Assembly (NCBI GenBank): GCA_963921795.1
Contig: OY997647.1
Span: 54,174,503-54,238,502 of the forward strand
DNA: 64,000 bases
Direction: 5' to 3'
Source of the DNA: Nannobrachium achirus
Lineage: Eukaryota > Chordata > Actinopteri > Myctophiformes > Myctophidae
In this document: positions 7,771 through 56,565 of the stretch, piece after piece
Position numbering within the stretch: position 1 is the first letter of the stretch
Layout of the letters: each line of letters starts with the position of its first letter
Made by a program: the position numbers and the translations under genes
The notes under the pieces: generated by a model
Database searches by the model: none
What the model was told of the DNA's origin: nothing
The model's input: the letters and a program-made list of their open reading frames with translations, nothing else

Positions 7771-7983
7771 GGTAACATTTCTTACTTGCTACAGTATCTG
7801 TGCAGTGCTTGCTCCGCCGTCACATTAACCCCTTTAGTCCTAAGGCCGATTCTAAAAACACATTGAAATATCTTGGGAGTAAAGTGGTGGACAGATGGAT
7901 GTAAAGAAAAATACCAAATTATGGGGAAGTATGATAATAATCTTGACCTACAAGTTTGAGTACTTTACCATTATATAAACATT

Positions 7984-7995
7984 ATTATCAGTTAA
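7984..7995. repeat. Target-site duplication, left copy
   Basis: ATTATCAGTTAA, repeated exactly at 8503-8514, brackets the truncated LINE. Confidence 0.85.
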
Positions 7996-8502
7996 GGAGG
8001 GCCCTGAACGGCATGAACAGTGTATGGAACTCTAACCTCCCCCGCCAAATCAAACTTAGCTTCTTCTTTGCAACGGTGGAGTCTGTTCTCCTCTATGGCA
8101 GTGAATGCTGGACCCTGAAGCCAACCCTGCAGAAGTCTCTAGACGGGTGCTACACTAGAATGTTGCGTGCAGTACTCAACATCAACAGGAGTGCACATGT
8201 TACAAACGAGAGCCTGTATGAGGGAATACCAAAGGTAAGCGAGAAAATTGCCACCAGAAGAATGAGACTAGCAGGACACTGCCAAAGACACCAGGAGCTT
8301 CCAGCCAGCAAATTGGTACTGTGGGAGCCAACACACGGGCACCGGCCGCGAGGACGTCCCACAAAAACATACGTGGACATACTCAAGGAAGACGTAGGGA
8401 CACAGAACACCAATGAGCTGGCCAGATGTATGGAGAACCGAGATGACTGGAAACAACGATGGAGGGCTCGTCTGAGGACGACCTAGATAGATAGATAGAT
8501 AG
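7996..8502 (+). mobile_element. 5'-truncated non-LTR retrotransposon (LINE) 3' end
   Basis: This fragment begins inside the reverse-transcriptase ORF and ends in a short (ATAG)n tail. It is flanked by a perfect 12-bp TSD, the signature of target-primed reverse transcription with 5' truncation. The coding part (in frame to the stop at 8484-8486) has the fish LINE C-terminal signature: LLYGSECWTL, then YTRMLRAVLNI, RRMRLAGHC and RPRGRPTKTY. About 160 codons survive without a stop, suggesting a fairly recent insertion. The catalytic palm and endonuclease are absent, so it is dead. RTE/L2-like family assignment is tentative. Confidence 0.9.
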
Positions 8503-23656: not shown

Positions 23657-23662
23657 CGGGTC
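23657..23662. repeat. 6-bp target-site duplication, left copy
   Basis: CGGGTC directly abuts the left TIR. The same six bases directly abut the right TIR at 38550-38555. Confidence 0.85.
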
Positions 23663-23701
23663 AGTAGGATAAGGGGCAGTGGGGGTCGGGAGGGCAGTTG
23701 G

Positions 23702-23711
23702 TGACGTCACA
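23702..23711. promoter_or_regulatory. CRE/ATF-like palindrome near element tip
   Basis: GTGACGTCAC is a perfect CREB/ATF consensus about 40 bp from the terminus, kept in both TIRs (right copy about 38502-38511). Function is inferred only. Confidence 0.4.
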
Positions 23712-23716
23712 GTAGG

Positions 23717-23795
23717 GGCGCGTGCATGTGTGTGCATGTGCGTGCGTGTGTGCGTGCGGGCGTGTGTGTGTGTGTGTGTGTGTGTGTATGCAGGC

Positions 23796-23886
<91 letters not shown>

Positions 23887-23911
23887 TGTGTGTGTGTGTG
23901 TGTGTGTGTGT
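23717..23911. repeat. (TG)n microsatellite inside left TIR
   Basis: Starts with TGCG/TGCA units then long TG. The right-TIR counterpart (38391-38493) is shorter. Confidence 0.9.
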
Positions 23912-24811
23912 TTCAAAAGTGAATAAAGGGCCCATGTTGGGGTGTATTGTTTGGTGATCCTTCTTAAAGACAGTGGGTGTTTTATTGTTTTTCTAAAGGA
24001 TGGCTTTAGCGTGACTGTAATTACTGAATGGATGAGGGCAGCTTTGTGGGATGGGGAAACCAATGGCTTTTTTCCTGACGGGATACTGTACACTAGTTCC
24101 AACGCAGCTAGAACAACAGGAGACAGTGCATTGAATAGATCTTTCTATCAGTGGGGGCCGTGACCACAGGCAAAAGGGCAGTGGATCTTATACATTTAAA
24201 ACAAAGATAGGCTCAGGATGGGGTGGATGCGGTCTGTGAGGTTGTGCTCCTTGTGGGATGGGGAAAGCAATGGCTTTTTCTTGAGGGCGGTTTACCGATC
24301 AGCCTGGGGTTCTATTCCTTGTAGGATGGGGAGATGATGATTTTGGATTAATAGCATTGTGACTCCTCTGTCATAAAAGTGTGTGTACACATTGGTGAAT
24401 GGAGGGTCACCGTGTTGGGGGGAGATTGTGGCTCTCTTATGTATGACTTTAGTCTCATTCTGTATGTACTGGGGGACAGTGGATATGGCTGGATGGACAT
24501 GCTGCAACATGTGTGATGTCCACAACAGGGAGAGAGGATGGATCACTTTACCTAACTATGGTCCTGACCCCAGCATGGGTTAACTACAGCAGGTCCATGC
24601 CAGTAGAAGAATGGTCACACATCAGGGGGTGGTGTAAAACAATGATAGCCTACTGCTAAGCTCAGTGACCACAACACAGGGCATGCACTTTTAGTGGACA
24701 ATATATATATTTTTTCCAGTATGCACACATGGATATAGTTATAGAAACCTATTACCTAGTCAAATGTGAGAAATTCCATACATGAAAATAAAAGAATAAA
24801 TAAGTAATGAA

Positions 24812-24932
24812 AAACAGCCGATCTACCTGCTGACAGAACGAGGCGATATGGAGAGAGAGAGTAAGATGTCGCAGTGGGATAGACGCGGACAGATCTACAG
24901 TACAATTATGGCTTGTACTGAGGCTATTTTGA
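24812..24932. repeat. Degenerate palindromic hairpin module in left TIR
   Basis: AAAACAGCCGATCTACCTGC at the left and GTACTGAGGCTATTTTGATC at the right, with CAGATCTACAG inside. It is repeated in reverse in the right TIR (37278-37400). A lone half-copy (AAAACAGCAGATCCACAA) lies at 25594. Confidence 0.6.
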
Positions 24933-27370
24933 TCGTTTGGGGACAAACATATAATTTATCGATTGGGTCTCGAGATAAATAAATACCATTTAAATAAAAA
25001 ACGTTTGGTAGCAATTAGTATACACAGAGTTAGGTTATAGTGCAAATAATATTAACAGACCAGTAAATATTTAGTTATTATTTGTTTTTACATTAGCAAG
25101 CCTTAACTAACTATGTCATGGTGTCTGACATGAATTTCGTAGTCAAACCTTAACATAGTTACAGTGGTTATAACTATCAATACTCATTAGTTGGGTTTTG
25201 TGCTCCTACACTACATAAAATCAGAGTCTATTTAACCCTCAAATAAAGCCAAATGATTCAAGTCACAAAGAGTGACTGATAGGAGTGTGATGTGTAATGT
25301 TAGGCTTGTACGTATAATCACTAGTGGACTCTCAAAGCATTTACGTGTCAGGGGACAGGCCTGTAAATCCAGGGGTTCAAACTAGTCAAAATAGATGATA
25401 TACAGTATATCCATGTCAGTGACAAATTGTTAACCAAAACCTCATTCTTGCATGCTATTCTTAAAATTCTATAATGTAATATTATAACACACACACATTT
25501 CATCCTTCAACACGATTTGAAAGCTTTGAAAAACTATGTAGTTCTGTATTTAAAGAAAAAATGTGTTACACACGCTCTTACAGAAATTATACGAAAACAG
25601 CAGATCCACAATCTCACAATTAGTTTACTCTTTACTGTCACTTGACAACAATAACAATGTCTGAGGGATGTAGATTCTTTCTGTTTTTTCTTCCTATTTA
25701 TATATTTTCAATACATGATAGGGACCATAGTAATAATTAGACAACTTATTGTTTATTTCCTGGGTGTTCTGTAGGGTAACTACGTTTGTAATTAGCCTGT
25801 ACCATCCATGAGCCTCACACCATGTACGGTAGTACATTTACAGTAAAACGTTTAAGCCCATGCATAAGCTTACTATTTAGTGTTTTATCTATGACATTAT
25901 TGTATTTCACTGGCTGTATAGCGGACAGGTATAGAGGATCAGCTATTCATTTACACTATACTTGTCTATTTTCCTCTCACTACATTTTGTTTTCCCACTA
26001 CAATTAAAAAAGCTCACCGTCATACACATCAACATAACTACAAAAGCCAGTACAACATCAACAAAACATCAACACCCGTACACATTACAGCAGAACAACG
26101 CCAAAACACATGACAAAATGCAAAACATGAAACCAAAAAGTCACAATATTTTACAAACAATGTGGTCAATAGACTAGTACCGTTTCAACAACAATCGTTA
26201 ATCCTATAAGACATCTGGTAACATAAGGGTATAATATAGCCAGTTTGAATAATAGTTTGACTGAATGACTGAAAGCTTTATTAGAAGATTGCATATACGA
26301 ATGGGTGCAGTTTCATAACAGTACAGTTAATTCACTGGTACAAGGACAACTAAAAGGAGATCGTAGTATGGTTTTTGGCTTAGTTTCACGGGAAACTTTC
26401 TTTATCTCTTCCCATATTGGGACAATCATAAAGTGTAGAGGACCAAGTATACAACACAACTATGCAACATCTACAGGCCTGCATAATACCTAATCAACTA
26501 GTGTATATTCAGCACAAATATACACCACCAACAGAAATCATCAGCATTGTCACTGCACATTGGGAGTAGCACACAAAACATAACACACAAAACATAAAAA
26601 AAAACTCTTGCATTCATGTGAAGACAAAATACACAATATGTTCTAATAATAAAGTGTCCAACAGACTTTTGCTCAACAACCTTTTAATATCAATTGACTG
26701 TGTAAATAACTGAAAGCTTTTTCTTTTTTCTTTTGCATAGGTGATGGGAAAGTATGGTTTTTCAATGTATAGTTTGGATATTTGTTTTTGTCATTTTACT
26801 GTTACTGATAATGATAGGATCATGGTTTACCTATGGTCATAGCTATGGATATGCATCTTTATGTATAACCTTGTTTATCTGAACTGAAATAAGAGTGTTT
26901 TCTAAATGCCAAAACACTTCAGTAATACATAACAAAATATGATATCCTAGAAAATACATTAACATCAAACATCAACTATATCAAATTTGTCTACAGTACA
27001 CTATCTACAGTACAGTATACTGTGCATACTAAAAACCTGTAAGATTCACCATTGCATTTCGTGAAATGAAAACCTACTGTACGTTTTTAGAAGCGTGAAT
27101 AAACTTTAACTATGCCTAAAACAACATAAAAACATAGATGACATTTTGATGCAGTCACACACTATCTTATCTCATGCACGTTTCTATATGCTACACGTCA
27201 CAGTAGGTGCTTCTAGTGGCAGTGGGTCCTAGCTAGTTAGTTGTCAGGCAAGTGAGACAACCGCTGCTTTCAGCACATTTTGCAAATACATCTAATATTT
27301 TTAGAATATGGTCACAAGACTCTTTTTTTTTACTGTCATATTGGGATCCCCCAACATTAATTTGACATGG

Positions 27371-27442
27371 GACTCTGTGGCACAACGGTAGCGCGTCTGA
27401 CTCCAGATCAGAAGGTTGCGTGTTCAAATCACGTCAGGGTCA
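27371..27442 (+). tRNA. tRNA-Trp (anticodon CCA), left TIR copy
   Basis: This 72-nt sequence folds as a standard cloverleaf. The acceptor stem GACTCTG pairs with CAGGGTC (one G-U) and has discriminator A. A-box TGGCACAACGGTAGC, anticodon stem-loop TCTGACTCCAGATCAGA with CCA in the loop, and B-box region GTGTTCAAATC follow. It is very close to vertebrate nuclear tRNA-Trp and lacks an intron. No strong T4 terminator is seen in the next 50 nt, so output may be low or extended. It lies inside the mobile element and has an exact mirror copy in the other TIR. Confidence 0.93.
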
Positions 27443-27974
27443 AAGCTTTATTGATCCCAGTGAATAAATTGTTCTATGCTATTAACAGATGTAAAATGTA
27501 ATTTAAAACAAATAGTGCTTCACGGGATTAATATAATATGGAAATTTGGTGTCACACTGATAAGAACCGGGGCCAAAATAAACCGACAGCTCATTAGATG
27601 CAATGTAAAAGTGGTCACAGGCAGCACTCGCATGTAAAACTGCGACGATCAAAATCTGTAACTTATGTGACAATAAAGCTGCATATGATTCTATAAACAT
27701 ATGTCATTACTACCCATTTAAGTGAATAACACATTTGTATTTCATCTGGTAGTTTATTATACAGGGGGAAATGCAAGTCATTCAAGGATTGAAAATGGTT
27801 GGTGTAAAACACTAGCTGGTTTTGACTACACACACAAATCATTTCTTTTTTTTCTCCCTGAAATTTATGTTGTTCACATTAAAATTGTACATAGTACACT
27901 CATACTAGGACATGTGTAGGCAGTTTAGCCATATGTAACAGTACAGGTATATACATTTGTTAAAATATAAAATA

Positions 27975-28110
27975 TACAAGATTGCATGAACACCATAGCT
28001 ACTGAAAGTGGTGTACAAAATTATACACACGGATCATTAAATACAAAACTTGTTTATTTTTATTGTGCTTACAAGAATGCATGAACATCATAGCTACTGA
28101 AAGTGGTGTA
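27975..28110. repeat. Gene-tail direct repeat spanning the TIR inner edge
   Basis: TACAAGATTGCATGAACACC followed by ATAGCTACTGAAAGTGGTGTAC (27977-28015) is repeated with few changes at 28070-28110, and more weakly at 29222-29262. The inner end of both TIRs falls within this unit. Confidence 0.75.
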
Positions 28111-28141
28111 CAAATATATGCATATCAAATCGAAAATATAA

Positions 28142-28147
28142 TTTATT
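28142..28147 (-). terminator. Poly(A) signal AATAAA for the leftmost exon
   Basis: TTTATT on the plus strand gives AATAAA about 45 nt after the stop of the leftmost Cys/His-domain exon. Confidence 0.5.
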
Positions 28148-28193
28148 CACAGTAACAATGTATGCATCAATTATTAAGGTGTTTATACTTTAT

Positions 28194-28663
28194 CTAATAA
28201 TTATATAGTTCTACAGATGGTGAGTTCCTCCAGAATGTAACAAGCTCATTCAGAACTGCACACGTTTTCTTGTCTTTACCCAATACCAGATTGGCATTAA
28301 CAATCGCCTTGATATATCCTGGAATATCTTTAACACCCTTCAATTCGTGTAGAAAAGTTTCACCCACTCCTTGCACGCTAGATGGTGTTGTAATAATACC
28401 ACGAGTTTCCAACACATGCATGATTCCTGAAATAAATCGCTCAGTCCACATTCTTTTCATTAATTCTTCAAAATGATTGAAAAAATATCTTGATGGTTGG
28501 GATAGACACTGGTGATGGGGTTCTATTTCACAACCGTCACAATCCTCTTTCCATAGATCAGTTATTACAGAATCCACTAGCATTGCTACGCATACTTTTA
28601 TAATACGCAGAAAGCGTGAACCGAGCAAAGTTGCAGGTTGATCCAGATCCAGTGGTGATGTCA
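28194..28663 (-). CDS. Cys/His helical domain, copy A (start-less 3' exon)
   Basis: An open frame of about 156 codons homologous to the C-terminal halves of the genes at 29333 and 29893. Seen: a Pro/Ser lead-in, a helix (FLRIIKVCVAMLVDSVITDLWK), a CDGC...HHQCL cluster that could bind zinc, then the most conserved block WTERFISGIMHVLE and a final LNELVTFWRNSP. It has no own ATG: the frame opens through GTG (28662-28664), exactly where CCCCAG|TG forms a 3' splice site. The phase matches a donor at the end of the 29893 gene (G|GTAATT, 29913/29912), so it may be an alternative last exon. Function unknown. The frame is intact, arguing against decay. Confidence 0.6.
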
Positions 28664-29332
28664 CTGGGGAGGGCCATGAAAACGTTGGTGATGAGGAGAA
28701 AAGAAGAATTTATTTCCAACTTTAAAATATGAATATAACACACTTATAAACAGTATATATATATATATATATACATTATATACGGCAAAACTATTCTCTC
28801 AAACTACTTTCTCAAAAAAAATTCTGGAACACCTCATTTTGCGATTCTTATCCTATCCAAACTTATATTAAAGTATCCAATCAACCAATCAATGCTGAAT
28901 CATTAGTATTAGTTTTATTCACCTATTTTAATTACAAACATTATGCCAACAACACTTTTGGCTGCATAAGAAGTGAGGTAAAATGTACCTGTCTAGTGAA
29001 ACAAAACAAATTTCAACATTATTACAATATAACCAACATTCTTTAAAAAAAAAAACTATTATGACCAAATATTTAGTATAATGTAGTTGATATTTTTTAT
29101 TTTGAGAAGAAAACAGGTACACATATATACAATGATAATGATAAACAACATAACTGGCGGAATCATCATACAAAAAAAAAATACTATGTGGTAAAGCTAC
29201 GTTTTTCTTTTTTAATGCTTACAAGATTGTATGAACACTGTAATGAATGTGGACACTATACAATATAGGCTATGCACTTTCTTCCATGTAACATTGTATT
29301 TTAATAAATGATTCATGAATTCTCTAGCAATA

Positions 29333-29808
29333 CTATAGCTCAGTACTTGGTTCTACAGATGGTGAGTTTATCCAGAAAGGAATGAGTTTGTTCATTACAT
29401 TATGGTGTGTCACATCATCACCCATTTCATCAGCTGCGATATCTAACCTCAGTTCATTAAGAAAGACTTCGCAGACACCTTGCACTCTGTCTTCTGTAGT
29501 AATAATACCACGAGTTTCTAACACATGCATGATTCCTGAAATAAATCGCTCTGTCCATAGCATTTTGATAAATTCTTTATAATGAGCAAATACATAATAA
29601 CGTGACACCGGATAACTAGTTTGCGCCCCATCGCACCAATTATGTGTCAAACAACAACAAACTAATGTAAGATCCCGGTCATTACTTAGTACAACAGTTA
29701 AAAGCTTATCAATGCATGCTTTTACAATATCCATAAACACGGTGCTAACCAGTCCATCGGGTTGGTCCAGAGCCAGGGGTATATTTGTTGGAGAGGGGTG
29801 GGAATGCA
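29333..29808 (-). CDS. Cys/His helical domain, copy B (start-less 3' exon)
   Basis: Second copy of the domain. The conserved block WTERFISGIMHVLETRG is identical to copy A, but the CxxC...HxC cluster is rearranged (CCCLTHNWCDG), so metal binding may be lost. A strong 3' splice site (TTCTCCTCCTCTCCAG|TG, exon from 29808) lies 104 nt from the donor at 29913/29912 of the upstream gene. Joining them keeps phase and would give a protein with two tandem domains. The in-frame ATG at 29869 lies inside the putative intron and has no TATA box like its neighbours. Ends in a stop at 29333; an ATTAAA-like poly(A) signal lies near 29300. Function unknown. Confidence 0.6.
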
Positions 29809-29892
29809 CTGGAGAGGAGGAGAAGTGGTCAAGAAAAGAATACCTTTTAAACATGAATAAAACATACAATATATGCTGTAAAACTATTGTCT

Positions 29893-30672
29893 CTACTTTC
29901 TCAAATAATTACCAGCGTCAGAGCTTGGGGTATCAGGTGGTGTGTTACTCCAAAATGTAACAAGCTCGTTCAACACATCACGCTTCTTCTTGTTTCCGCC
30001 AAGCACATGATTATTATCAACAGCCTCTTTGATTTTTGTCTGAATTACATCCACATTCTTCAGCTCATATAGAAAAGCTTCACATATCCCTTGCACTCGA
30101 GATGTGGTAGTGACAGTTCCTTGGGTTTCCAGAACACGCATGATCCCCGAAATGAATCGATCAGTCCAGAGTCTTTTCATTAATTCTTTAAAATTTATGA
30201 AGACATAATATTTAGGGATTGGATTGAGGCACTGGTGTTGGGTCTGACTAGGATGATCTGCTTGGCAGCCGTCACATTCATCTTTCCACAGATCAATTAT
30301 TACCACATTCAGTAGCTTGATGATGCATACTTTTATAATTTCCAGAAGCTCTACATTGCCCAGACCATCTCCGTGATCCAGAGTCAGGGTTGAATTCACT
30401 GGAGATGGTGGTGAAAGCGAAAGCATTGGTGAGAAGGAGTAAGGTGTAGAGTAATTCACCGGTGAAGACGGTGGAACAGGATCTAACGCCAGATACTGAA
30501 AAAATATTGGTGATGATGGAGGTGAAGGACCACATGCAAGGGCATAGTATTCAGCGTCCGTGTCGCTGTCATTGGGTTCTGCCCATGGCTCACCTTCTAC
30601 AGTTTCCACGGGTAGAATACAGCTAGAGTTGGGTTTGTCAACTTCTTCGCTTCTTTCAGCAGATTCCTCCAT
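29893..30672 (-). CDS. 259-aa protein: shared N-terminus + Pro/Ser linker + Cys/His domain (copy C)
   Basis: Residues 1-45 are acidic and include NSSCILPVETVE, almost identical to the CARD gene at 30922. Residues 47-95 are Pro/Ser-rich. Residues 105-245 form the helical domain: DLWKDECDGC, HPSQTQHQC (a CxxC-x9-HxC-like cluster) and WTDRFISGIMRVLE. Start choice: the ATG at 30670-30672 (MEES) matches the paralogue and has a good context (ATCATGG). The longer frame's ATG at 30702 lies at or upstream of the expected transcription start, since the TATA box is at 30711-30717. A G|GTAATT donor close to the stop allows splicing to copies B or A. No known family assigned. The Cys/His pattern suggests zinc binding (inference). 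Confidence 0.75.
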   Translation of the reverse strand: MEESAERSEEVDKPNSSCILPVETVEGEPWAEPNDSDTDAEYYALACGPSPPSSPIFFQYLALDPVPPSSPVNYSTPYSFSPMLSLSPPSPVNSTLTLDHGDGLGNVELLEIIKVCIIKLLNVVIIDLWKDECDGCQADHPSQTQHQCLNPIPKYYVFINFKELMKRLWTDRFISGIMRVLETQGTVTTTSRVQGICEAFLYELKNVDVIQTKIKEAVDNNHVLGGNKKKRDVLNELVTFWSNTPPDTPSSDAGNYLRK

Positions 30673-30706
30673 GATGACTGGTAAAGACCACATTACGAGC
30701 AATAAT

Positions 30707-30844
30707 ACCCTTATATATTGTGAGAGGAATAGGCGTGGTGTGTCTTGCGAGAGGAAGAGACGTAGGAGGGTGGACCAGTAAGGGGTATGAGGAGGAGGGG
30801 CAGAAGCAGATTGAAAACAAAGAGGTTTCTTTGTTTAGACATAG
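30707..30844 (-). promoter_or_regulatory. Promoter of the 259-aa gene (duplicated module)
   Basis: TATATAAGGGT (minus strand) lies about 40 nt before the ATG. The whole 138-bp segment, including CCTCTCGCAAGACACACC and CTACGTCTCTTCC, is repeated with few changes at 32624-32762 before the CARD gene. Confidence 0.7.
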
Positions 30845-30856
30845 CATTATTATTCT

Positions 30857-30934
30857 ATAGTTCAGTACTTGGTTCTACAGATGGTGAGTTTATCCAAAAA
30901 GTAATGAGTTCGTTCATCACATTATGTTGTGTCA
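30857..30934 (-). pseudogene. Relic of the Cys/His domain 3' end behind the CARD gene
   Basis: About 78 bp closely match the last coding bases of copy B (29335-29415): in the old frame they would read VMNELITFWINSP and the terminal SVEPSTEL. The CARD frame enters this relic one base out of phase and stops at once on its TAA. This indicates that the CARD array replaced the body of a Cys/His-domain gene. Confidence 0.8.
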
Positions 30935-32586
30935 CATTTTCTTTTCTTTGTTTCTGGCTTCATGGTGTTGCCGTCTGATTTGGTTGTATGCCCATGCTTC
31001 CTTTTTTGCTGTTGTTTCACATGGCCACTAGATTTGTCCCATGGGATTGTCTTCAGAGCAGGAAACATTTTTATTACATTTCTTGTTTTCAGAATATCCA
31101 GGAAAGCATTGCAGGTTGATTCACCCTTGCCCATAATTATGTCCACAAGTTCAGTGGCCGGGTCGGCTGAGATACGATATCTATCCAGTTGTGTGATTAG
31201 TTTTCGTTCACAGATAAGCGAAATAAGCTTGAAGAGATTGTCAATATCTGACATCAGGGTGTTTTGAAGTGTTGACTTGTTTTTTCTTATACTGTCTTGT
31301 GCTCTTCTGACCGCATCTGTGCAAACCATGTATCCAGGGCGTCCTTGGTGTTGTGCTGCATAAGGCAGTGCCTTCAATTCAGGTCTAATTGCTGTTACTT
31401 CATTATTTTGTAGCATAGCAATGAACCCATAACAGAATTCTTCGCCCTTGCACACCATTTTGTCCAAAAGCTCAACAGCTGCTGTGTACGGTGAGTGAGT
31501 GTCCCTGAGTTGTCTGTAGCCCACATTGCCAACAAGATCCGATTGGAAAGCACAATCGATGAAAAATTCCACATCTGACATGATGATTTCTTGCAGTTTT
31601 GGCTTGTTTACCCTTAAAATCTCTGTAAACGACATTCCCGGCATGAAACGAAATCCTTCCCTCTCTGTTTCAAAAACCATTGGTGGAAGACCGTACCAAG
31701 GCATTTTCTCCAGATCAGGAAACCTGTCTGTAAGTTTTACGTGTTTTAGCAGAGACAGGAACACTTGGCAAATCTTTTCACCCTTGTTCATTATCTTATC
31801 AAGGAGCCTATATGATGCATCCGAATAAGACATTTGCATGAGGTCCCGGTACTCTCCAGACACCAGTAGGCTTTCGTCAATTTCGAAAACACACTGGATG
31901 ACATATTTGATATCTGGAAGCAGTATTTTTCTAAGTTCTAAACTGTTTTTCCGTATCATATCTTTTGCTGTCACACATCCATTGCCAATCACGTTTGGAC
32001 GACTGTACCATGACATGTGCTGTAGATCAGGATATGTTTCTATTGCATTTGACGCTTGTAGCAGACACAGGAACTCGATGCACGCAGTTTCACCATTGGC
32101 GATAATTATTTCCAAGAGTGCTTGAATTGTCTGTGAACTATCTGGGTTATTGTACACCATGTGCTTGATCTTATTGTAGTCCCCATGATCCATCAAATGT
32201 TCTTCATGTCCAAAAGCCAACTGGAGGAGATAAAGTATATCATGCTCCAGTATGCATTGAAGTTTTTTAGAGTTTTCTCTGATCATATCAGTTGCTGACC
32301 ATCCATATGGTAAATTTACCCCATTACTCCCGCTGGGAGCTCCTTCCTCGATCTCACTTGACAACTGCACAGCCTTTTCTCCCATCTCTGGATAGGGTGG
32401 TGAAAGCGGTGGTGAGAAGTAAGGTGTAGAGTAGCCCAGAGGTGATGGAGGAGGTACACCCGGGCATGGACAATATTCATCATCAGTTTCAGATTTGGAA
32501 TCGTGCATAGGATCGCATTCTACAGTTTCCACTGGTAGAATACAGCTAGAGTTGGTTTCATCCCTTCTTTCAATAGATTCTTCCAT
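30922..32586 (-). CDS. 554-aa protein with four tandem CARD-like domains
   Basis: Residues 1-45 share the acidic NSSCILPVETVE leader of the 259-aa paralogue, then comes a Pro-rich linker (YSTPYFSPPLSPP). Four repeats follow (about 100-191, 209-297, 321-409, 430-516). Each has helix 1 with IRxNxxxLxxxL and a hydrophobic helix 2-3. Helix 4-5 is LLDxIMxKGExxCxxFLxxLK (consensus), ending in FPxLxxxPW. This matches the six-helix CARD pattern, closest by eye to CARD9/CARD11/BCL10-type sequences. A basic tail (QKRKHG, KKRK) could be a nuclear signal. The start at MEES (32584-32586) has a strong context (CACCATGG). The upstream in-frame ATG (32604) lies about where transcription should begin. Role (inference): interference with, or mimicry of, host CARD signalling. 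The frame is uninterrupted. Confidence 0.78.
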   Translation of the reverse strand: MEESIERRDETNSSCILPVETVECDPMHDSKSETDDEYCPCPGVPPPSPLGYSTPYFSPPLSPPYPEMGEKAVQLSSEIEEGAPSGSNGVNLPYGWSATDMIRENSKKLQCILEHDILYLLQLAFGHEEHLMDHGDYNKIKHMVYNNPDSSQTIQALLEIIIANGETACIEFLCLLQASNAIETYPDLQHMSWYSRPNVIGNGCVTAKDMIRKNSLELRKILLPDIKYVIQCVFEIDESLLVSGEYRDLMQMSYSDASYRLLDKIMNKGEKICQVFLSLLKHVKLTDRFPDLEKMPWYGLPPMVFETEREGFRFMPGMSFTEILRVNKPKLQEIIMSDVEFFIDCAFQSDLVGNVGYRQLRDTHSPYTAAVELLDKMVCKGEEFCYGFIAMLQNNEVTAIRPELKALPYAAQHQGRPGYMVCTDAVRRAQDSIRKNKSTLQNTLMSDIDNLFKLISLICERKLITQLDRYRISADPATELVDIIMGKGESTCNAFLDILKTRNVIKMFPALKTIPWDKSSGHVKQQQKRKHGHTTKSDGNTMKPETKKRKCDTT

Positions 32587-32623
32587 GGTGACTGGTGAAA
32601 TCATAGTATTCTACTCTCTAAGA

Positions 32624-32762
32624 GTCCCTTATATCTTGTGAGAGGGATAGGCGTGGTGTATCTTGCGAGAGGAAGAGACGTAGGAGGGTGGATCAGTAAG
32701 GGGTATGAGGAGGAGGACCAGAAGTAGATTGAATACAGAGAGGTTTCTTTGTTTAGACATAT
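32624..32762 (-). promoter_or_regulatory. Promoter of the CARD gene (duplicated module)
   Basis: GATATAAGGG (minus strand, about 32627-32636) acts as the TATA box about 45 nt upstream of the MEES ATG, leaving a very short leader. The segment is a direct repeat of 30707-30844. Confidence 0.7.
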
Positions 32763-32831
32763 AACTATATTAGGTATAATTACTGTAGGATGATGGAAAA
32801 ATTCCATGAAAAAATATATGTTTTTATATGT

Positions 32832-32837
32832 TTTATT
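32832..32837 (-). terminator. Poly(A) signal AATAAA for the 296-aa gene
   Basis: TTTATT on the plus strand, about 190 nt past the stop codon and the nearest AATAAA on that strand. Confidence 0.35.
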
Positions 32838-33027
32838 TTGACAAGAGAACATGATACATCTTTACAGACATGTTACACTCATGTTACAATTAATATAATA
32901 TGGAAATAAAATGTGGATACACAATCTAGGGAAACACATTGAACATTCAACACATCATATGATTCGAGCAGACTATGATGCTCTCAAATCAACAGGAGAG
33001 GACACATGTATGGTAGGCCTATTGTTA

Positions 33028-33918
33028 CTATGACCCATCGGTTTCTAGCTCATGCTCCAACACACGTCTTACAGTATTACAGTTGCCCCTTGACCACTGC
33101 GTATCTTCAGGTGGTTTTATAAAATCAGCCCACCCTGGTTTATTGTACATTGAAAACAGAGTAGCTCCAGATGGTTGTGACTTTTTGGAATTTTCAGGTA
33201 CTTTTATGGAAGCAATCCAACCGGGCTTATGGTCCATTGAAAACAGAGTAGATCCAGAGGGATGATTGTGATTAGGTTCATTCAAGAGTTTTTTATCGTG
33301 CACCAGGGGTACGCGTCTTGGTTTCTTTGTAGAGAGGTAGTTCGTACGATTTACACCGTTCAGGCGATCATCCAGCAACATCATCTTGCGAGTCTCTTTT
33401 GCTTTGCTGAAAAACCCATTGATTAATTTCAGCACGTCCTGCAGAAGCCACAAATCACCAGCATGAAAGGCTAAACGGATTGGAAAATACATTTCTTTGT
33501 CCAATACAGTCGTCGGTCTTTCACAAGTTGGTCCCATTGACTTGAATCTTACCAACAACCATAAATATGATCGTAAACAGTCGATAAGGAAGGCTTCTCC
33601 GCCTGATAAACGAGTAGGCATCGCTTCATCCACTTTCATCATATCCGATGGTTTGATGTAGTCATCTTTGGCCCATCTCCCCCAGAGCAGATAATCAGTG
33701 AAATCCATGATGGCAGTCTCAAACCTCTCAAATTCAGATGCATATACTCTCACATGATGCAAATCTGCAAACAATGTTTCCCCATCTTCCACTGTATACA
33801 GATCAACAAATGGAAAAAGGTGCATGGGTGGCGAGAAATGGCATCGTAATTTACGTTCATTAGAAAGATTCCATATCAGCTTATCCTCGCCCTGGTAATT
33901 CAGGCGGTGAGAGTCCAT
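33028..33918 (-). CDS. 296-aa protein of unknown family with C-terminal tandem repeat
   Basis: I do not recognise this protein. Residues 1-60 hold a beta-like region (CHFSPPMHLFPFVDLYTVEDG). Residues 60-180 are predominantly helical with aromatic/Leu patches (FTDYLLWGRW, DCLRSYLWLLVRF, DLWLLQDVLKLI). Residues 219-275 are two copies of a 29-residue unit with the core PSGxTLFSMxxKPGWxxxIKxPE. There is no signal peptide or membrane span. The ATG at 33916-33918 follows a TATA-like TTTAAATATGA by about 30 nt, the same short-leader layout as the two genes downstream. It is the first gene of the leftward cluster. The frame is intact. A structural or host-interaction role cannot be distinguished. Confidence 0.7.
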   Translation of the reverse strand: MDSHRLNYQGEDKLIWNLSNERKLRCHFSPPMHLFPFVDLYTVEDGETLFADLHHVRVYASEFERFETAIMDFTDYLLWGRWAKDDYIKPSDMMKVDEAMPTRLSGGEAFLIDCLRSYLWLLVRFKSMGPTCERPTTVLDKEMYFPIRLAFHAGDLWLLQDVLKLINGFFSKAKETRKMMLLDDRLNGVNRTNYLSTKKPRRVPLVHDKKLLNEPNHNHPSGSTLFSMDHKPGWIASIKVPENSKKSQPSGATLFSMYNKPGWADFIKPPEDTQWSRGNCNTVRRVLEHELETDGS

Positions 33919-33943
33919 TTTTGGTGGTAAGAATTGGTCTTCC

Positions 33944-33955
33944 TCATATTTAAAG
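33944..33955 (-). promoter_or_regulatory. TATA-like box of the 296-aa gene
   Basis: CTTTAAATATGAGG on the minus strand about 30 nt before the ATG. A GAGGCGGG GC-box-like motif lies just upstream (33973-33980). Confidence 0.5.
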
Positions 33956-34757
33956 AAAAAGGATCCCGAGAGAGGCGGGTATTAGAGAGACCGAACGTTG
34001 ACCAACCAATGAAATTTAATGTAGGAGGGATCTGGATAATTGCAATAGGTTAAACTGACCCTCCCCATGACAACTGATAAAATAACTGGTACAATATATT
34101 TATACCTTGATACCGTCTAGTTCACATGAAATAAGCCTATTCGCACACAAAATAAAAATACAATACATTAAATAAAATAAGAAAGAAGTTGGCATCTATG
34201 GTGTTCATGCAATCTTGTATATTATATTTTATATTTTAACAAATGTATATACCTGTACTGTTACATATGGCTAAACTGCCTACACATGTCCTAGTATGAG
34301 TGTACTATGTACAATTTTAATGTGAACAACATAAATTTCAGGGAGAAAAAAAAAGAAATGATTTGTGTGTGTAGTCAAAACCAGCTAGTGTTTTACACCA
34401 ACCATTTTCAATCCTTGAATGACTTGCATTTCCCCCTGTATAATAAACTACCAGATGAAATACAAATGTGTTATTCACTTAAATGGGTAGTAATGACATA
34501 TGTTTATAGAATCATATGCAGCTTTATTGTCACATAAGTTACAGATTTTGATCGTCGCAGTTTTACATGCGAGTGCTGCCTGTGACCACTTTTACATTGC
34601 ATCTAATGAGCTGTCGGTTTATTTTGGCCCCGGTTCTTATCAGTGTGACACCAAATTTCCATATTATATTAATCCCGTGAAGCACTATTTGTTTTAAATT
34701 ACATTTTACATCTGTTAATAGCATAGAACAATTTATTCACTGGGATCAATAAAGCTT

Positions 34758-34829
34758 TGACCCTGACGTGATTTGAACACGCAACCTTCTGATCTGGAGT
34801 CAGACGCGCTACCGTTGTGCCACAGAGTC
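34758..34829 (-). tRNA. tRNA-Trp (anticodon CCA), right TIR copy
   Basis: Identical, inverted copy of the gene at 27371-27442, with the same cloverleaf, A and B boxes and CCA anticodon. The two copies point toward each other across the core. Confidence 0.93.
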
Positions 34830-37800
34830 CCATGTCAAATTAATGTTGGGGGATCCCAATATGACAGTAAAAAAAAAGAGTCTTGTGACCATATTCTAAA
34901 AATATTAGATGTATTTGCAAAATGTGCTGAAAGCAGCGGTTGTCTCACTTGCCTGACAACTAACTAGCTAGGACCCACTGCCACTAGAAGCACCTACTGT
35001 GACGTGTAGCATATAGAAACGTGCATGAGATAAGATAGTGTGTGACTGCATCAAAATGTCATCTATGTTTTTATGTTGTTTTAGGCATAGTTAAAGTTTA
35101 TTCACGCTTCTAAAAACGTACAGTAGGTTTTCATTTCACGAAATGCAATGGTGAATCTTACAGGTTTTTAGTATGCACAGTATACTGTACTGTAGATAGT
35201 GTACTGTAGACAAATTTGATATAGTTGATGTTTGATGTTAATGTATTTTCTAGGATATCATATTTTGTTATGTATTACTGAAGTGTTTTGGCATTTAGAA
35301 AACACTCTTACTTCAGTTCAGATAAACAAGGTTATACATAAAGATGCATATCCATAGCTATGACCATAGGTAAACCATGATCCTATCATTATCAGTAACA
35401 GTAAAATGACAAAAACAAATATCCAAACTATACATTGAAAAACCATACTTTCCCATCACCTATGCAAAAGAAAAAAGAAAAAGCTTTCAGTTATTTACAC
35501 AGTCAATTGATATTAAAAGGTTGTTGAGCAAAAGTCTGTTGGACACTTTATTATTAGAACATATTGTGTATTTTGTCTTCACATGAATGCAAGAGTTTTT
35601 TTTTATGTTTTGTGTGTTATGTTTTGTGTGCTACTCCCAATGTGCAGTGACAATGCTGATGATTTCTGTTGGTGGTGTATATTTGTGCTGAATATACACT
35701 AGTTGATTAGGTATTATGCAGGCCTGTAGATGTTGCATAGTTGTGTTGTATACTTGGTCCTCTACACTTTATGATTGTCCCAATATGGGAAGAGATAAAG
35801 AAAGTTTCCCGTGAAACTAAGCCAAAAACCATACTACGATCTCCTTTTAGTTGTCCTTGTACCAGTGAATTAACTGTACTGTTATGAAACTGCACCCATT
35901 CGTATATGCAATCTTCTAATAAAGCTTTCAGTCATTCAGTCAAACTATTATTCAAACTGGCTATATTATACCCTTATGTTACCAGATGTCTTATAGGATT
36001 AACGATTGTTGTTGAAACGGTACTAGTCTATTGACCACATTGTTTGTAAAATATTGTGACTTTTTGGTTTCATGTTTTGCATTTTGTCATGTGTTTTGGC
36101 GTTGTTCTGCTGTAATGTGTACGGGTGTTGATGTTTTGTTGATGTTGTACTGGCTTTTGTAGTTATGTTGATGTGTATGACGGTGAGCTTTTTTAATTGT
36201 AGTGGGAAAACAAAATGTAGTGAGAGGAAAATAGACAAGTATAGTGTAAATGAATAGCTGATCCTCTATACCTGTCCGCTATACAGCCAGTGAAATACAA
36301 TAATGTCATAGATAAAACACTAAATAGTAAGCTTATGCATGGGCTTAAACGTTTTACTGTAAATGTACTACCGTACATGGTGTGAGGCTCATGGATGGTA
36401 CAGGCTAATTACAAACGTAGTTACCCTACAGAACACCCAGGAAATAAACAATAAGTTGTCTAATTATTACTATGGTCCCTATCATGTATTGAAAATATAT
36501 AAATAGGAAGAAAAAACAGAAAGAATCTACATCCCTCAGACATTGTTATTGTTGTCAAGTGACAGTAAAGAGTAAACTAATTGTGAGATTGTGGATCTGC
36601 TGTTTTCGTATAATTTCTGTAAGAGCGTGTGTAACACATTTTTTCTTTAAATACAGAACTACATAGTTTTTCAAAGCTTTCAAATCGTGTTGAAGGATGA
36701 AATGTGTGTGTGTTATAATATTACATTATAGAATTTTAAGAATAGCATGCAAGAATGAGGTTTTGGTGAACAATTTGTCACTGACATGGATATACTGTAT
36801 ATCATCTATTTTGACTAGTTTGAACCCCTGGATTTACAGGCCTGTCCCCTGACACGTAAATGCTTTGAGAGTCCACTAGTGATTATACGTACAAGCCTAA
36901 CATTACACATCACACTCCTATCAGTCACTCTTTGTGACTTGAATCATTTGGCTTTATTTGAGGGTTAAATAGACTCTGATTTTATGTAGTGTAGGAGCAC
37001 AAAACCCAACTAATGAGTATTGATAGTTATAACCACTGTAACTATGTTAAGGTTTGACTACGAAATTCATGTCAGACACCATGACATAGTTAGTTAAGGC
37101 TTGCTAATGTAAAAACAAATAATAACTAAATATTTACTGGTCTGTTAATATTATTTGCACTATAACCTTTTAAAACTCTGTGTATACTAATTGCTACCAA
37201 ACGTTTTTTTTTTATTTAAATGGTATTTATTTATCTCGAGACCCAATCGATAAATTATATGTTTGTCCCCAAACGATCAAAATAGCCTCAGTACAAGCCA
37301 TAATTGTACTGTAGATCTGTCCGCGTCTATCCCACTGCGACATCTTACTCTCTCTCTCTACGACGTCTCGTTCTGTCAGCAGGTAGATCGGCTGTTTTTC
37401 ATTACTTATTTACTCTTTTATTTTCATGTATGGAATTTCACACATTTGGCTAGGTAATAGGTTTCTATAACTATATCCATGTGTGCATACTGGAAAACAA
37501 TATATACTGCATTGTCCACTAAAAGTGCATGCCCTGATTCTACACACCCTGTGTTGTGGTCACTGTAGGCCTATCATTGTTTTACACCACCCCCCTGATG
37601 TGTGACCATTCTTCTAATGGCTTGGACCTACTGTATAGTTAGCCTAACCCATGCTGGGGGACAGGACCATAGTTAGGTAATGTGATCCATCCTCTCTCCT
37701 TGTTGACAACATCAAACATGTTGCAGCATGTCCATCCAGCCATATCCACTGTCCCCCAGTACATACAGAATGAGACTAAAGTCATACATAAGAGCCACAA

Positions 37801-38390
37801 TCTCCCCCCAACACGGTGACCCTCCATTCACCAATGTGTACACAAACTTTTATGACAGAGATGTCACAATGCTATTAATCCAAAATCATCATCTCCCCAT
37901 CCTACAAGGAATAGAACCCTAGGCTGATCTGTAAACCGCCCTCACCCTACAGCTCACCATCCACCCCCCCTCACCCCACTACGGAATCCTATGCTCAATA
38001 AAATCACTCCCAACTCTTGCTGTGACATAACCTCACAGACCACTCTCACCCTACAGTTCAATATCCACCCAACCCTACGGGATCCTGTGCCTATCTTTGT
38101 TTTAAATAAGATCCACGGCCCTTTTGCCTGTGGTCACGACCCCCTGATAGAAAGATCTATTCAATGCAATGTCACCTGTTGTTCTAGCTGCATTGAAACT
38201 AATGTACAGTATCCCATCACACTCCAAAAGCCATCTCATCTCCCATCCCACAAGGCTGCCCTCTCTCCATTCACTAATTACAGTCACGCTAAAGCCATCC
38301 TTTAGAAAAACAATAAAACCCCCACTGTCTTTAAGAATGAACACCAAACAATACACCCCAACATGAGCCCTTTATTCACTTTTGAAACAC

Positions 38391-38431
<41 letters not shown>

Positions 38432-38493
38432 CACACACACACACACGCACGCACGCACGCACGCACGCACGCACATGCACACACATGCACGCG
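38391..38493. repeat. (CA)n/(CACG)n microsatellite inside right TIR
   Basis: Shorter counterpart of 23717-23911. Confidence 0.9.
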
Positions 38494-38549
38494 CCCCTAC
38501 TGTGACGTCACCAACTGCCCTCCCCGACCTAACTGCCCCTTATCCTACT

Positions 38550-38555
38550 CGGGTC
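38550..38555. repeat. 6-bp target-site duplication, right copy
   Basis: CGGGTC, identical to 23657-23662. Confidence 0.85.
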
Positions 38556-53599: not shown

Positions 53600-54366
53600 T
53601 CTGTATGTTGCAGGCCCATGGTGTGGCAAACCACCAACATGGTAGACCCCTGAACAGTGTTTATGCCAAGTTTAGTGTGGATTGGAGCAACGGTGTGCCT
53701 GTGGCAGCCAGGGGCCCCTGGGAGCCACATTGGGCCCCTTGTGTTGCTATTATAATGGCCGACCCCTGAACGGTGTTTGTTCAATCAAGTTTAGTGTGGA
53801 TCGGAGCAATGGTATGCCTGTGGCAGCCAGGGGCCCCTGGGGGCCACATTGGGCCCCTTGTGTTGCTATTATAATGGCCGACCCCTGAACGGTGTTTGTG
53901 CAATCAAGTTTAGTGCGGATCGGAGCAACGGTGTGCCTGTGTCAGCCAGGGGCACCCGGGGGCCACATTGGGCCCCTTGTGTTGCTATTATAATGGTAGA
54001 CCCCTGAACGGTGTTTGTGCCAAGTTTAGTGTGGATCGGAGCAACGGTATGCCTGTGGCAGCCAGGGGCCCCTGGGGGCCACGTGGGGCCTGTGGTGTTG
54101 CTATTATAATGGCAGACCCCCAGAACGGTGTTTGTACAATCAAGTTTAGTGTGGATCAGAGCAACGGTGTGCCTGTGGCAGCCAGGGGCCCCTGGGGGCC
54201 ACATGGGGCCCTTGGTGTTGCTATTATAATGGCAGACCCCTGAACGGTGTGTGTGCCAAGTTTAGTGTGGATCGGAGCAACGGTGTGCTTATGGCAGCCA
54301 GGGGCCCCTGGGGGCCACATGGGGCCTGTGGTGTTGCTATTATAATGGCAGACCCCTGAAGAGTGT
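53600..54366. repeat. Minisatellite, about 118-bp unit, about 6.5 copies
   Basis: GACCCCTGAACGGTGTTTGT recurs at about 53644, 53761, 53880, 53999, 54115, 54235 and 54352. Each unit contains GCAGCCAGGGGCCCCTGGGG. Open frames on both strands follow the repeat and are not credible genes. Confidence 0.92.
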
Positions 54367-54379
54367 TTATGACTAACGT

Positions 54380-56214: not shown

Positions 56215-56565
56215 CAAAAAAAAATTTGAGAAAAAAAATTTGAGAAAAAAAAATTTGAGAAAAAAAAATGTTGAGAAAAAATTTTTTTGAGAAAAAAATG
56301 TTTTGAGAAAAAAAAATTGAGAAAAAAAAATTTGAGAAAAAAAAAATTTGAGAAAAAAAATTTGAGAAAAAAAAAATTTGAGAAAAAAAAATTTTGAGGA
56401 AAAAAAAAATTAAGAAAAAAAAAATTTGAGAAAAAAAAAATTTGAGAAAAAAAAATTTGAGAAAAAAAAATTTGAGAAAAAAAAATTTGAGAAAAAAAAC
56501 ATTTGAGAAAAAAAAAATTTTGAGAAAAAAAATTTAGAAAAAAAATGTTGAGAAAAAAAAAATGT
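56215..56565. repeat. (GAGAAAAAAAATTT)n minisatellite, about 22 units
   Basis: Units of 13-16 bp with variable A-tract length. Phased A-tracts every turn or so predict strongly curved DNA. The Phe-rich minus-strand frame is an artefact. Confidence 0.92.

Follow-up and report, generated by a model that had tools for sequence, protein, structure and literature searches.

What is a mobile element that has the ends of a Polinton/Maverick and none of its core genes? The question is raised by a unit with giant terminal inverted repeats (TIRs) in a 64,000-nucleotide stretch of the genome of the myctophid fish Nannobrachium achirus (contig OY997647.1 of assembly GCA_963921795.1; hereafter the window), which lies at C10:54174503-54238502 in the same 1.66-Gb assembly against which all genome searches were run. 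An earlier note, made from the letters alone, had suggested a non-autonomous cargo carrier or an undescribed lineage of Polinton/Maverick, and this is supported by a core-bearing relative with shared tips in the same genome. Judged by its ends and relatives, the unit is of the Maverick lineage, though not an autonomous Maverick. We consider it probable that the unit and its kin (type A) are coreless, gene-bearing partners, as satellite or second segment, of a Maverick/Polinton (type B) that mobilises them in trans.

The unit starts with AGTAGGATAAG and ends with CTTATCCTACT (AGTAG...CTACT; tips AGTAGG), and is flanked by an exact 6-bp target-site duplication, CGGGTC. It has the AGT/AG-type motif and 6-bp duplication of the Polinton/Maverick lineage, with AGTAGG where published vertebrate Mavericks have AGTAGT. 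The TIRs contain an ungapped inverted block of 2,822 bp that is 100% complementary, far above chance. The centre holds five open reading frames (ORFs), all on the minus strand, encoding p296, a 560-aa protein of repeated CARD domains (Pfam PF00619, E 3.7e-13; three stretches by Pfam, four by eye), and the paralogues p266, p173 and p130; the CARD protein is p266-like at its N-terminus as well. We searched positions 23663-38549 by tblastn (E 0.01) with 11 ORFs, ten from the core-bearing relative described below and one from its palindromic derivative, and found no match to integrase, polymerase, ATPase, protease or capsid; the sole match in the window was a p266-like accessory ORF. The protein-primed polymerase B (PolB) and retroviral-type integrase of an autonomous Polinton/Maverick, and its capsid, protease and ATPase, were therefore not detected in the unit. 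The earlier note had claimed TIRs of about 4.3 kb filling more than half of the unit, AG...CT ends with an exact CGGGTC duplication, missing core genes and a centre of accessory-type genes only, and all of these were found (Table 1). Protein homology searches returned only 3, 2 and 2 proteins, the sole named one from Lampetra planeri, and no relative of the CARD and p296 proteins was found among viral contigs. The predicted structure of p296 has a pLDDT of 45, and the CARD matches to solved structures are weak (NLRC4 and NOD1, E 0.58-0.91), level with chance matches to SUMO protease.

That note had named, as confirmation of the class, a relative in which these tips flank polymerase B and integrase, and this genome contains one. 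Type B1, which forms pair 1 with window-type A, has three copies that share the tips of the window unit and carry a protein-primed PolB, ATPase, protease and probable capsid gene. One B1 element was read as three separate stretches (L029, L017 and L030), and polymerase, ATPase, protease and capsid frames are also present in L022 and L025. The polymerase matches DNA_pol_B_2 (PF03175, E 7e-42), the protease is adenain-type (Peptidase_C5, 1.5e-4), the ATPase has an A32-like match just short of the family cut-off (Pox_A32, 9e-5) and the capsid a weak double-jelly-roll match (0.029). An integrase with chromodomain (PF00665, 1.7e-11; PF00385, 8e-10) was seen in one copy, the single one whose ends were fetched. 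Gene order and strands agree with the vertebrate Maverick plan as given in the available part of a published survey (Barreat & Katzourakis 2021, PMC8097293). B1 also carries its own p266-family gene, has the target-site duplication CATATG, and its left tip is 90% identical to that of the window over 376 bp, much of which is a TG tract. Thus, the window unit has termini in common with a core-bearing element, as does the A element of a second pair.

The second pair, A3/B2, has its own shared ends and proteins 66-79% identical to those of the first. The CARD and p296 proteins of the A3 element L052 are 79% and 66-68% identical to those of the window, and the protease of the B2 element L058 is 76% identical to that of B1. 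Both L052 and L058 open with AGAGAAGATGAATGACACC at the same base, and over 1,281 bp their identity is 95.7%. When the whole genome was searched with the B2 tip (37 of 37 candidates scored), the two B2 elements and five of type A3 were recovered, one of them having a diverged tip. B2 at C8 and the A3 elements at C1, C13 and C6 also carry a right repeat of 132 bp that is 100% identical to this tip. A core-bearing partner with matching ends was thus found for two of the A clades. Separately, B2/A3-type tip pairs at C17:2399782-2418359, C13:32572027-32587280, C11:44010870-44022598 and C1:86151875-86172447 have no CARD, p296, protease or polymerase match between the tips, and are possibly further partner types.

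The window element, of clade A1, belongs to a family of elements with related tips. A 600-bp TIR tip gave at least 52 matches (best 40 of 58 candidates scored), read as six single ends and, counting that of the window, 17 inverted pairs with spacings of 11.5-16.6 kb. We took 10-kb stretches (L009-L028) from 20 of the 22 non-window tip loci. The gene set of the window is present in ten of them (L009, L011, L015, L016, L019, L020, L024, L026, L027 and L028), of which L020 has a broken CARD frame, L024 a shortened p296, and L009, L011 and L024 no visible p130 frame of at least 120 aa. L010 is a decayed copy of the window type, L017, L022 and L025 are core-bearing, and L012, L013, L014, L021 and L023 are palindromic over all or most of their length. 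The remaining stretch, L018 (C12:6914260-6924259), has related tips and an exact TGCTAG duplication around a 1,582-aa ORF with DUF6589 and no Maverick genes. An exact 6-bp duplication bounds 14 of the 15 elements with both ends seen, at different places, the exception being the C5 element with its damaged right tip; it also flanks palindromes at C2, C9, C4 and C15 (GAGAGG at C15, counted among the 14). The left tip of the C21 element was not found, and at C3:13 Mb the left end alone was fetched.

Accessory and core genes are separated across the genome. The 44 CARD loci tabulated all lack a Maverick protease within 20 kb, and no CARD or p296 match falls in the 20-kb neighbourhood of the protease at B1/B2 loci. 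Seven of 64 p296 loci do lie near a protease, at 6.2-6.4 kb, and all belong to a diverged monopartite family of 37-44% identity, in which L053 combines p296, a p266-like gene, integrase and capsid-module genes in one element. Conversely, 16 of 23 protease loci, distant lineages included, have no p296 match within 20 kb. Clusters of p296/CARD without protease number 54, fragments and palindromes counted, against five B1/B2 loci. A polymerase census parallels the protease loci, the exceptions being a palindrome at C4, which holds two pieces of polymerase, and fragments at C1:58.98 Mb. These counts derive from 97 p296 matches, with second fragments of a locus merged; from 100 CARD matches, leaving out second fragments, most short or 39-67% partials and a few short 89-97% pieces; and from 24 protease matches, two at one locus being merged. 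CARD-repeat matches of 39-62%, with frames of 236-305 aa, were also observed at C1:80.68 Mb, C5:69.21 Mb, C24:37.77 Mb, C518 and C70.

The A genes appear to be under selection. Pairwise Nei-Gojobori estimates, made without a tree, gave a pooled dN/dS across A1 of 0.51 for CARD (12 copies), 0.39 for p266 (11), 0.45 for p173 (11) and 0.55 for p130 (9); broken or shortened frames (CARD of L020, p296 of L010 and L024, and others) were omitted. Between clades, dN/dS was 0.49 for CARD (95% 0.38-0.65), 0.36 (0.26-0.51) and 0.35 (0.22-0.57) for p296, and 0.39 (0.27-0.56) for p266, with all upper bootstrap limits at or below 0.65. Beyond what was first proposed, these estimates indicate that the cargo is a conserved and selected gene set, open and constrained in at least three clades, two of which have an end-matched core partner.

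The repeats of type A appear to record exchange and copying. The left and right outer repeats are 100% identical in both elements tested (C10-57M and C2-11M), whereas in the window the outer ~1.19 kb are about 91% alike over aligned columns, with many indels. Because these outer repeats are also nearer to those of other elements among the ends compared (C2 for the left, 94.9%; C3 for the right, 94.0%), while the inner 3.15 kb has two mismatches, the window copy is best read as a mosaic that recombined at its ends. C3-30M and the B1 element at C7 likewise match the tip query better at one end. In A3 the repeats are short. The A3 right arm matches the window TIR as a single copy (82-87% identity in L052 and 87% for a piece of L056, with no match in L055), so the giant A1 repeats probably arose by copying of this arm to the opposite end. 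Palindrome arms derive from either A end or from the polymerase side of B, with spacers of 2 to 1,441 bp, and suggest copy-back replication. Element size averages 14.8 kb (n=28, SD 1.45 kb, range 11.6-18.4). Uncertain or partial ends (C5, C7:3.97 Mb, C21, C3:13 Mb and single ends), C12:6.9 Mb and the C11 A3 copy are omitted from this sample, and A2, A3 and B2 lengths were taken from search coordinates without tip inspection. A constrained size was also inferred for vertebrate Mavericks, in the part of the survey available (PMC8097293).

The repeats also carry tRNA genes, a feature absent from the earlier note. A tRNA-Trp(CCA) gene is present in the repeats of 9 of 21 elements read (the window and L009-L028), two of them palindromic (L012 and L021). 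Clustered apparent host tRNA-Trp genes, at C21:55551335-55665431 and C8:51335073-51378857, are one mismatch from the element copy (best 40 of 149 candidates scored). Variable sites number 3 of 72 in the tRNA against 88 of 492 in the flanks (Fisher p 0.0017), 1/72 against 31/508 without the divergent L021 (p 0.16), and 0/72 against 29/508 when L019 is also left out post hoc (p 0.038). Because the p value shifts with these omissions, conservation of the tRNA within the repeats is only suggestive. A second, Glu-like tRNA gene lies in the repeats of L009 (408-479), L015 (150-221) and L013 (1710-1783) and is decaying in several copies; predicted TCA 'tRNA-SeC' genes, considered as suppressors, were rejected as degenerate relatives of this copy (29.1 bits). 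Nearer the ends, TGACGTCA, which we take to be a CRE/ATF-type octamer, is found in 30 of 30 A1/B1 (clade-1) tips at 39-40 bp from the end, palindromes and the L018 element counted. It lies at 80 bp in A3 and B2 tips and is absent from the A2 tip.

Table 1 Features of the type A element in the window (positions within the 64,000-nucleotide stretch).
Feature	Position	Strand	Remarks
Whole unit	23663-38549		14,887 bp; TIRs 58% of length
Left target-site duplication, CGGGTC	23657..23662	.	exact match to right copy
Left TIR	23663..27998	+	4,336 bp
Outer TIR, left	23663..24850	+	about 91% to right counterpart; nearest among compared ends is C2 element, 94.9%
TGACGTCA, left	23702..23709	+	position 40 from tip
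Inner TIR, left	24851..27998	+	2 mismatches and about 10 gap columns to right copy
tRNA-Glu-like acceptor-stem remnant	26409..26422	-	gene present in relatives L009 and L015, deleted in window
tRNA-Trp (CCA)	27371..27442	+	62.3 bits; apparent host tRNA-Trp genes differ by one mismatch
ORF p130	28194..28583	-	129 aa; p266 family
ORF p173	29333..29854	-	p266 family
ORF p266	29893..30693	-	Cys-rich motif CxGC..DHPSQxQHxCL, also in accessory ORFs of core-bearing Mavericks
ORF, 560 aa	30922..32604	-	repeated CARD domains; p266-like N-terminus
ORF p296	33028..33918	-	no Pfam family; 37% homologue in monopartite Maverick L053, which also has integrase
Right TIR	34196..38549	-	4,354 bp
tRNA-Trp (CCA), second copy	34758..34829	-	identical to first
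TGACGTCA, right	38503..38510	-	position 40 from right tip
Right target-site duplication, CGGGTC	38550..38555	.	exact match to left copy

Elsewhere in the window, minisatellite-like direct repeats were seen at 53639-54368 and 56216-56563, and an open frame at 7947-8486 resembles, by eye, the C-terminal part of a LINE reverse transcriptase.

Several points weigh against A as a partner mobilised in trans, a step that we infer. End sharing in pair 1 is limited: the B1 right tip is only about 80% identical to that of the window, and in the stretch at 150-560 bp the ends of the pair are 69-79% alike, by a crude measure that gives 60-73% for the two ends of B1 itself. The B2 polymerase has a stop at C8 and is in two pieces at C23, and the core genes reported for B2 are protease and polymerase. 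A search for the A2 tip of L057 (best 40 of 1,514 and 40 of 48 candidates scored) gave about 20 elements, with no protease locus among them; this tip represents one A2 subgroup, and about 13 other p296 loci of 77-82% were not matched, the A2-like loci outside its matches including C1:27.6, C5:57.6 and C3:62.2 Mb. Finally, dN/dS of p296 within A1 is 0.62 (11 copies), which may partly reflect neutral decay. Because core genes are absent, A would be a helper-dependent satellite; we find a satellite, whether of benefit or cost to its helper, somewhat more probable than a second segment that is obligate. An obligate bipartite virus, with A and B as mutually needed segments of one Maverick genome, packaged separately or together, would explain why L053 unites p296, a p266-like gene and integrase, while B1/B2 have no nearby p296 match and A has no core, as if partitioned; the split is present in two tip-matched pairs, and element sizes are alike. 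However, B1 holds the core set and its own p266-family gene, A clusters far outnumber B loci, and p296 looks dispensable because most protease loci have no detectable p296 nearby, unless it is too diverged to detect. We therefore regard mutual dependence as rather unlikely.

The absence of core genes, the ends common with a core-bearing element and the existence of palindromic derivatives would also suit a plain non-autonomous deletion derivative with no function of its own. In such a derivative we would expect remnants of the partner evolving neutrally, but the A genes are not B1 leftovers, B1/B2 loci have no CARD or p296 match nearby, and the A frames stay open across clades with dN/dS well under 1, making this origin improbable. 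Near-perfect arms, and palindromes with spacers down to 2 bp, could come from a fold-back chimera or a collapsed repeat in the assembly; yet the same architecture is found at many places, each element having differences of its own, exact duplications surround palindromes too, and the window arms differ in their outer part, so that we give an artefact very little credence. Long near-identical arms within one chromosome might equally be a segmental inverted duplication or a host gene cluster, but with related tips and exact duplications around 14 of 15 elements at different places, this is the least credible origin.

We therefore favour type A as the coreless partner of type B. A and B have in common their tips, 6-bp duplications and TGACGTCA near the tip, and two diverged A/B pairs each share ends. 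The integrase and protein-primed polymerase of B would act on the shared tips, and A would thereby be replicated, packaged and integrated in trans. In turn, A may contribute accessory functions through a Pol III tRNA gene, p266, p296 and the multi-CARD protein, a candidate for blocking death-fold signalling. Giant repeats and palindromes might form by copy-back in strand-displacement replication, keeping a gene-poor genome near packageable length. More tentatively, with the balance of our judgement slightly against it, we picture a Maverick virus of fish with its dsDNA gene set split between core element B and accessory element A (segment or long-lived satellite) with common termini, a split that persisted into at least two matched pairs. 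Copies of A and of B would have been endogenised, the TIRs would have expanded to fill out the length, and their tRNA genes would have been captured.

How does this arrangement compare with known systems? Adintoviruses are Maverick-like animal viruses whose core modules are the same as those of type B; type A has none. Satellites, virophages and non-autonomous transposons depend on a helper and outnumber it; A differs in having no capsid genes and in having p266 and p296 homologues in Maverick accessory regions. Repbase includes non-autonomous Polinton entries. In the available part of the vertebrate survey (PMC8097293), Mavericks resemble A in their AGT-type ends, exact 6-bp duplication and size, and related elements hold accessory genes beside the core; but A has no core gene, and their TIRs measure 46-1,447 bp (mean 402) against 4.3 kb in the window. 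Mining and modelling there went through core genes, and coreless elements would probably be missed because of this. The segmented bidnaviruses, parvovirus-type viruses with an adintovirus-class PolB and in some cases up to twelve segments, likewise have genes spread over several molecules, but with a parvovirus helicase and capsid, and are not integrating Mavericks with double-jelly-roll capsids (PMC11071296, available part). A bipartite densovirus (PMC10267136, available part) is an animal DNA virus with a divided genome, as proposed for A/B, but is single-stranded, and a mutual dependence of A and B is hypothetical. Our literature search, which covered few subscription papers and is weak evidence of novelty, showed, among the papers listed, nothing on coreless, bipartite, palindromic or tRNA-bearing Mavericks.

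If this reading is correct, A and B would be the first case of a Maverick proper that is divided or has a satellite (bidnaviruses, whose PolB is related, are already known in segmented form), and surveys keyed to polymerase, integrase and capsid genes would overlook a class of coreless partners. As satellite or segment, A would be an example from vertebrates of an integrating dsDNA lineage with partitioned genes, and makes testable the idea that multipartite organisation arises via transfer of accessory genes onto a molecule that depends on a helper. Copy-back replication and packaging limits may be recorded in the palindromes and giant repeats, a point that bears on Maverick particle formation.

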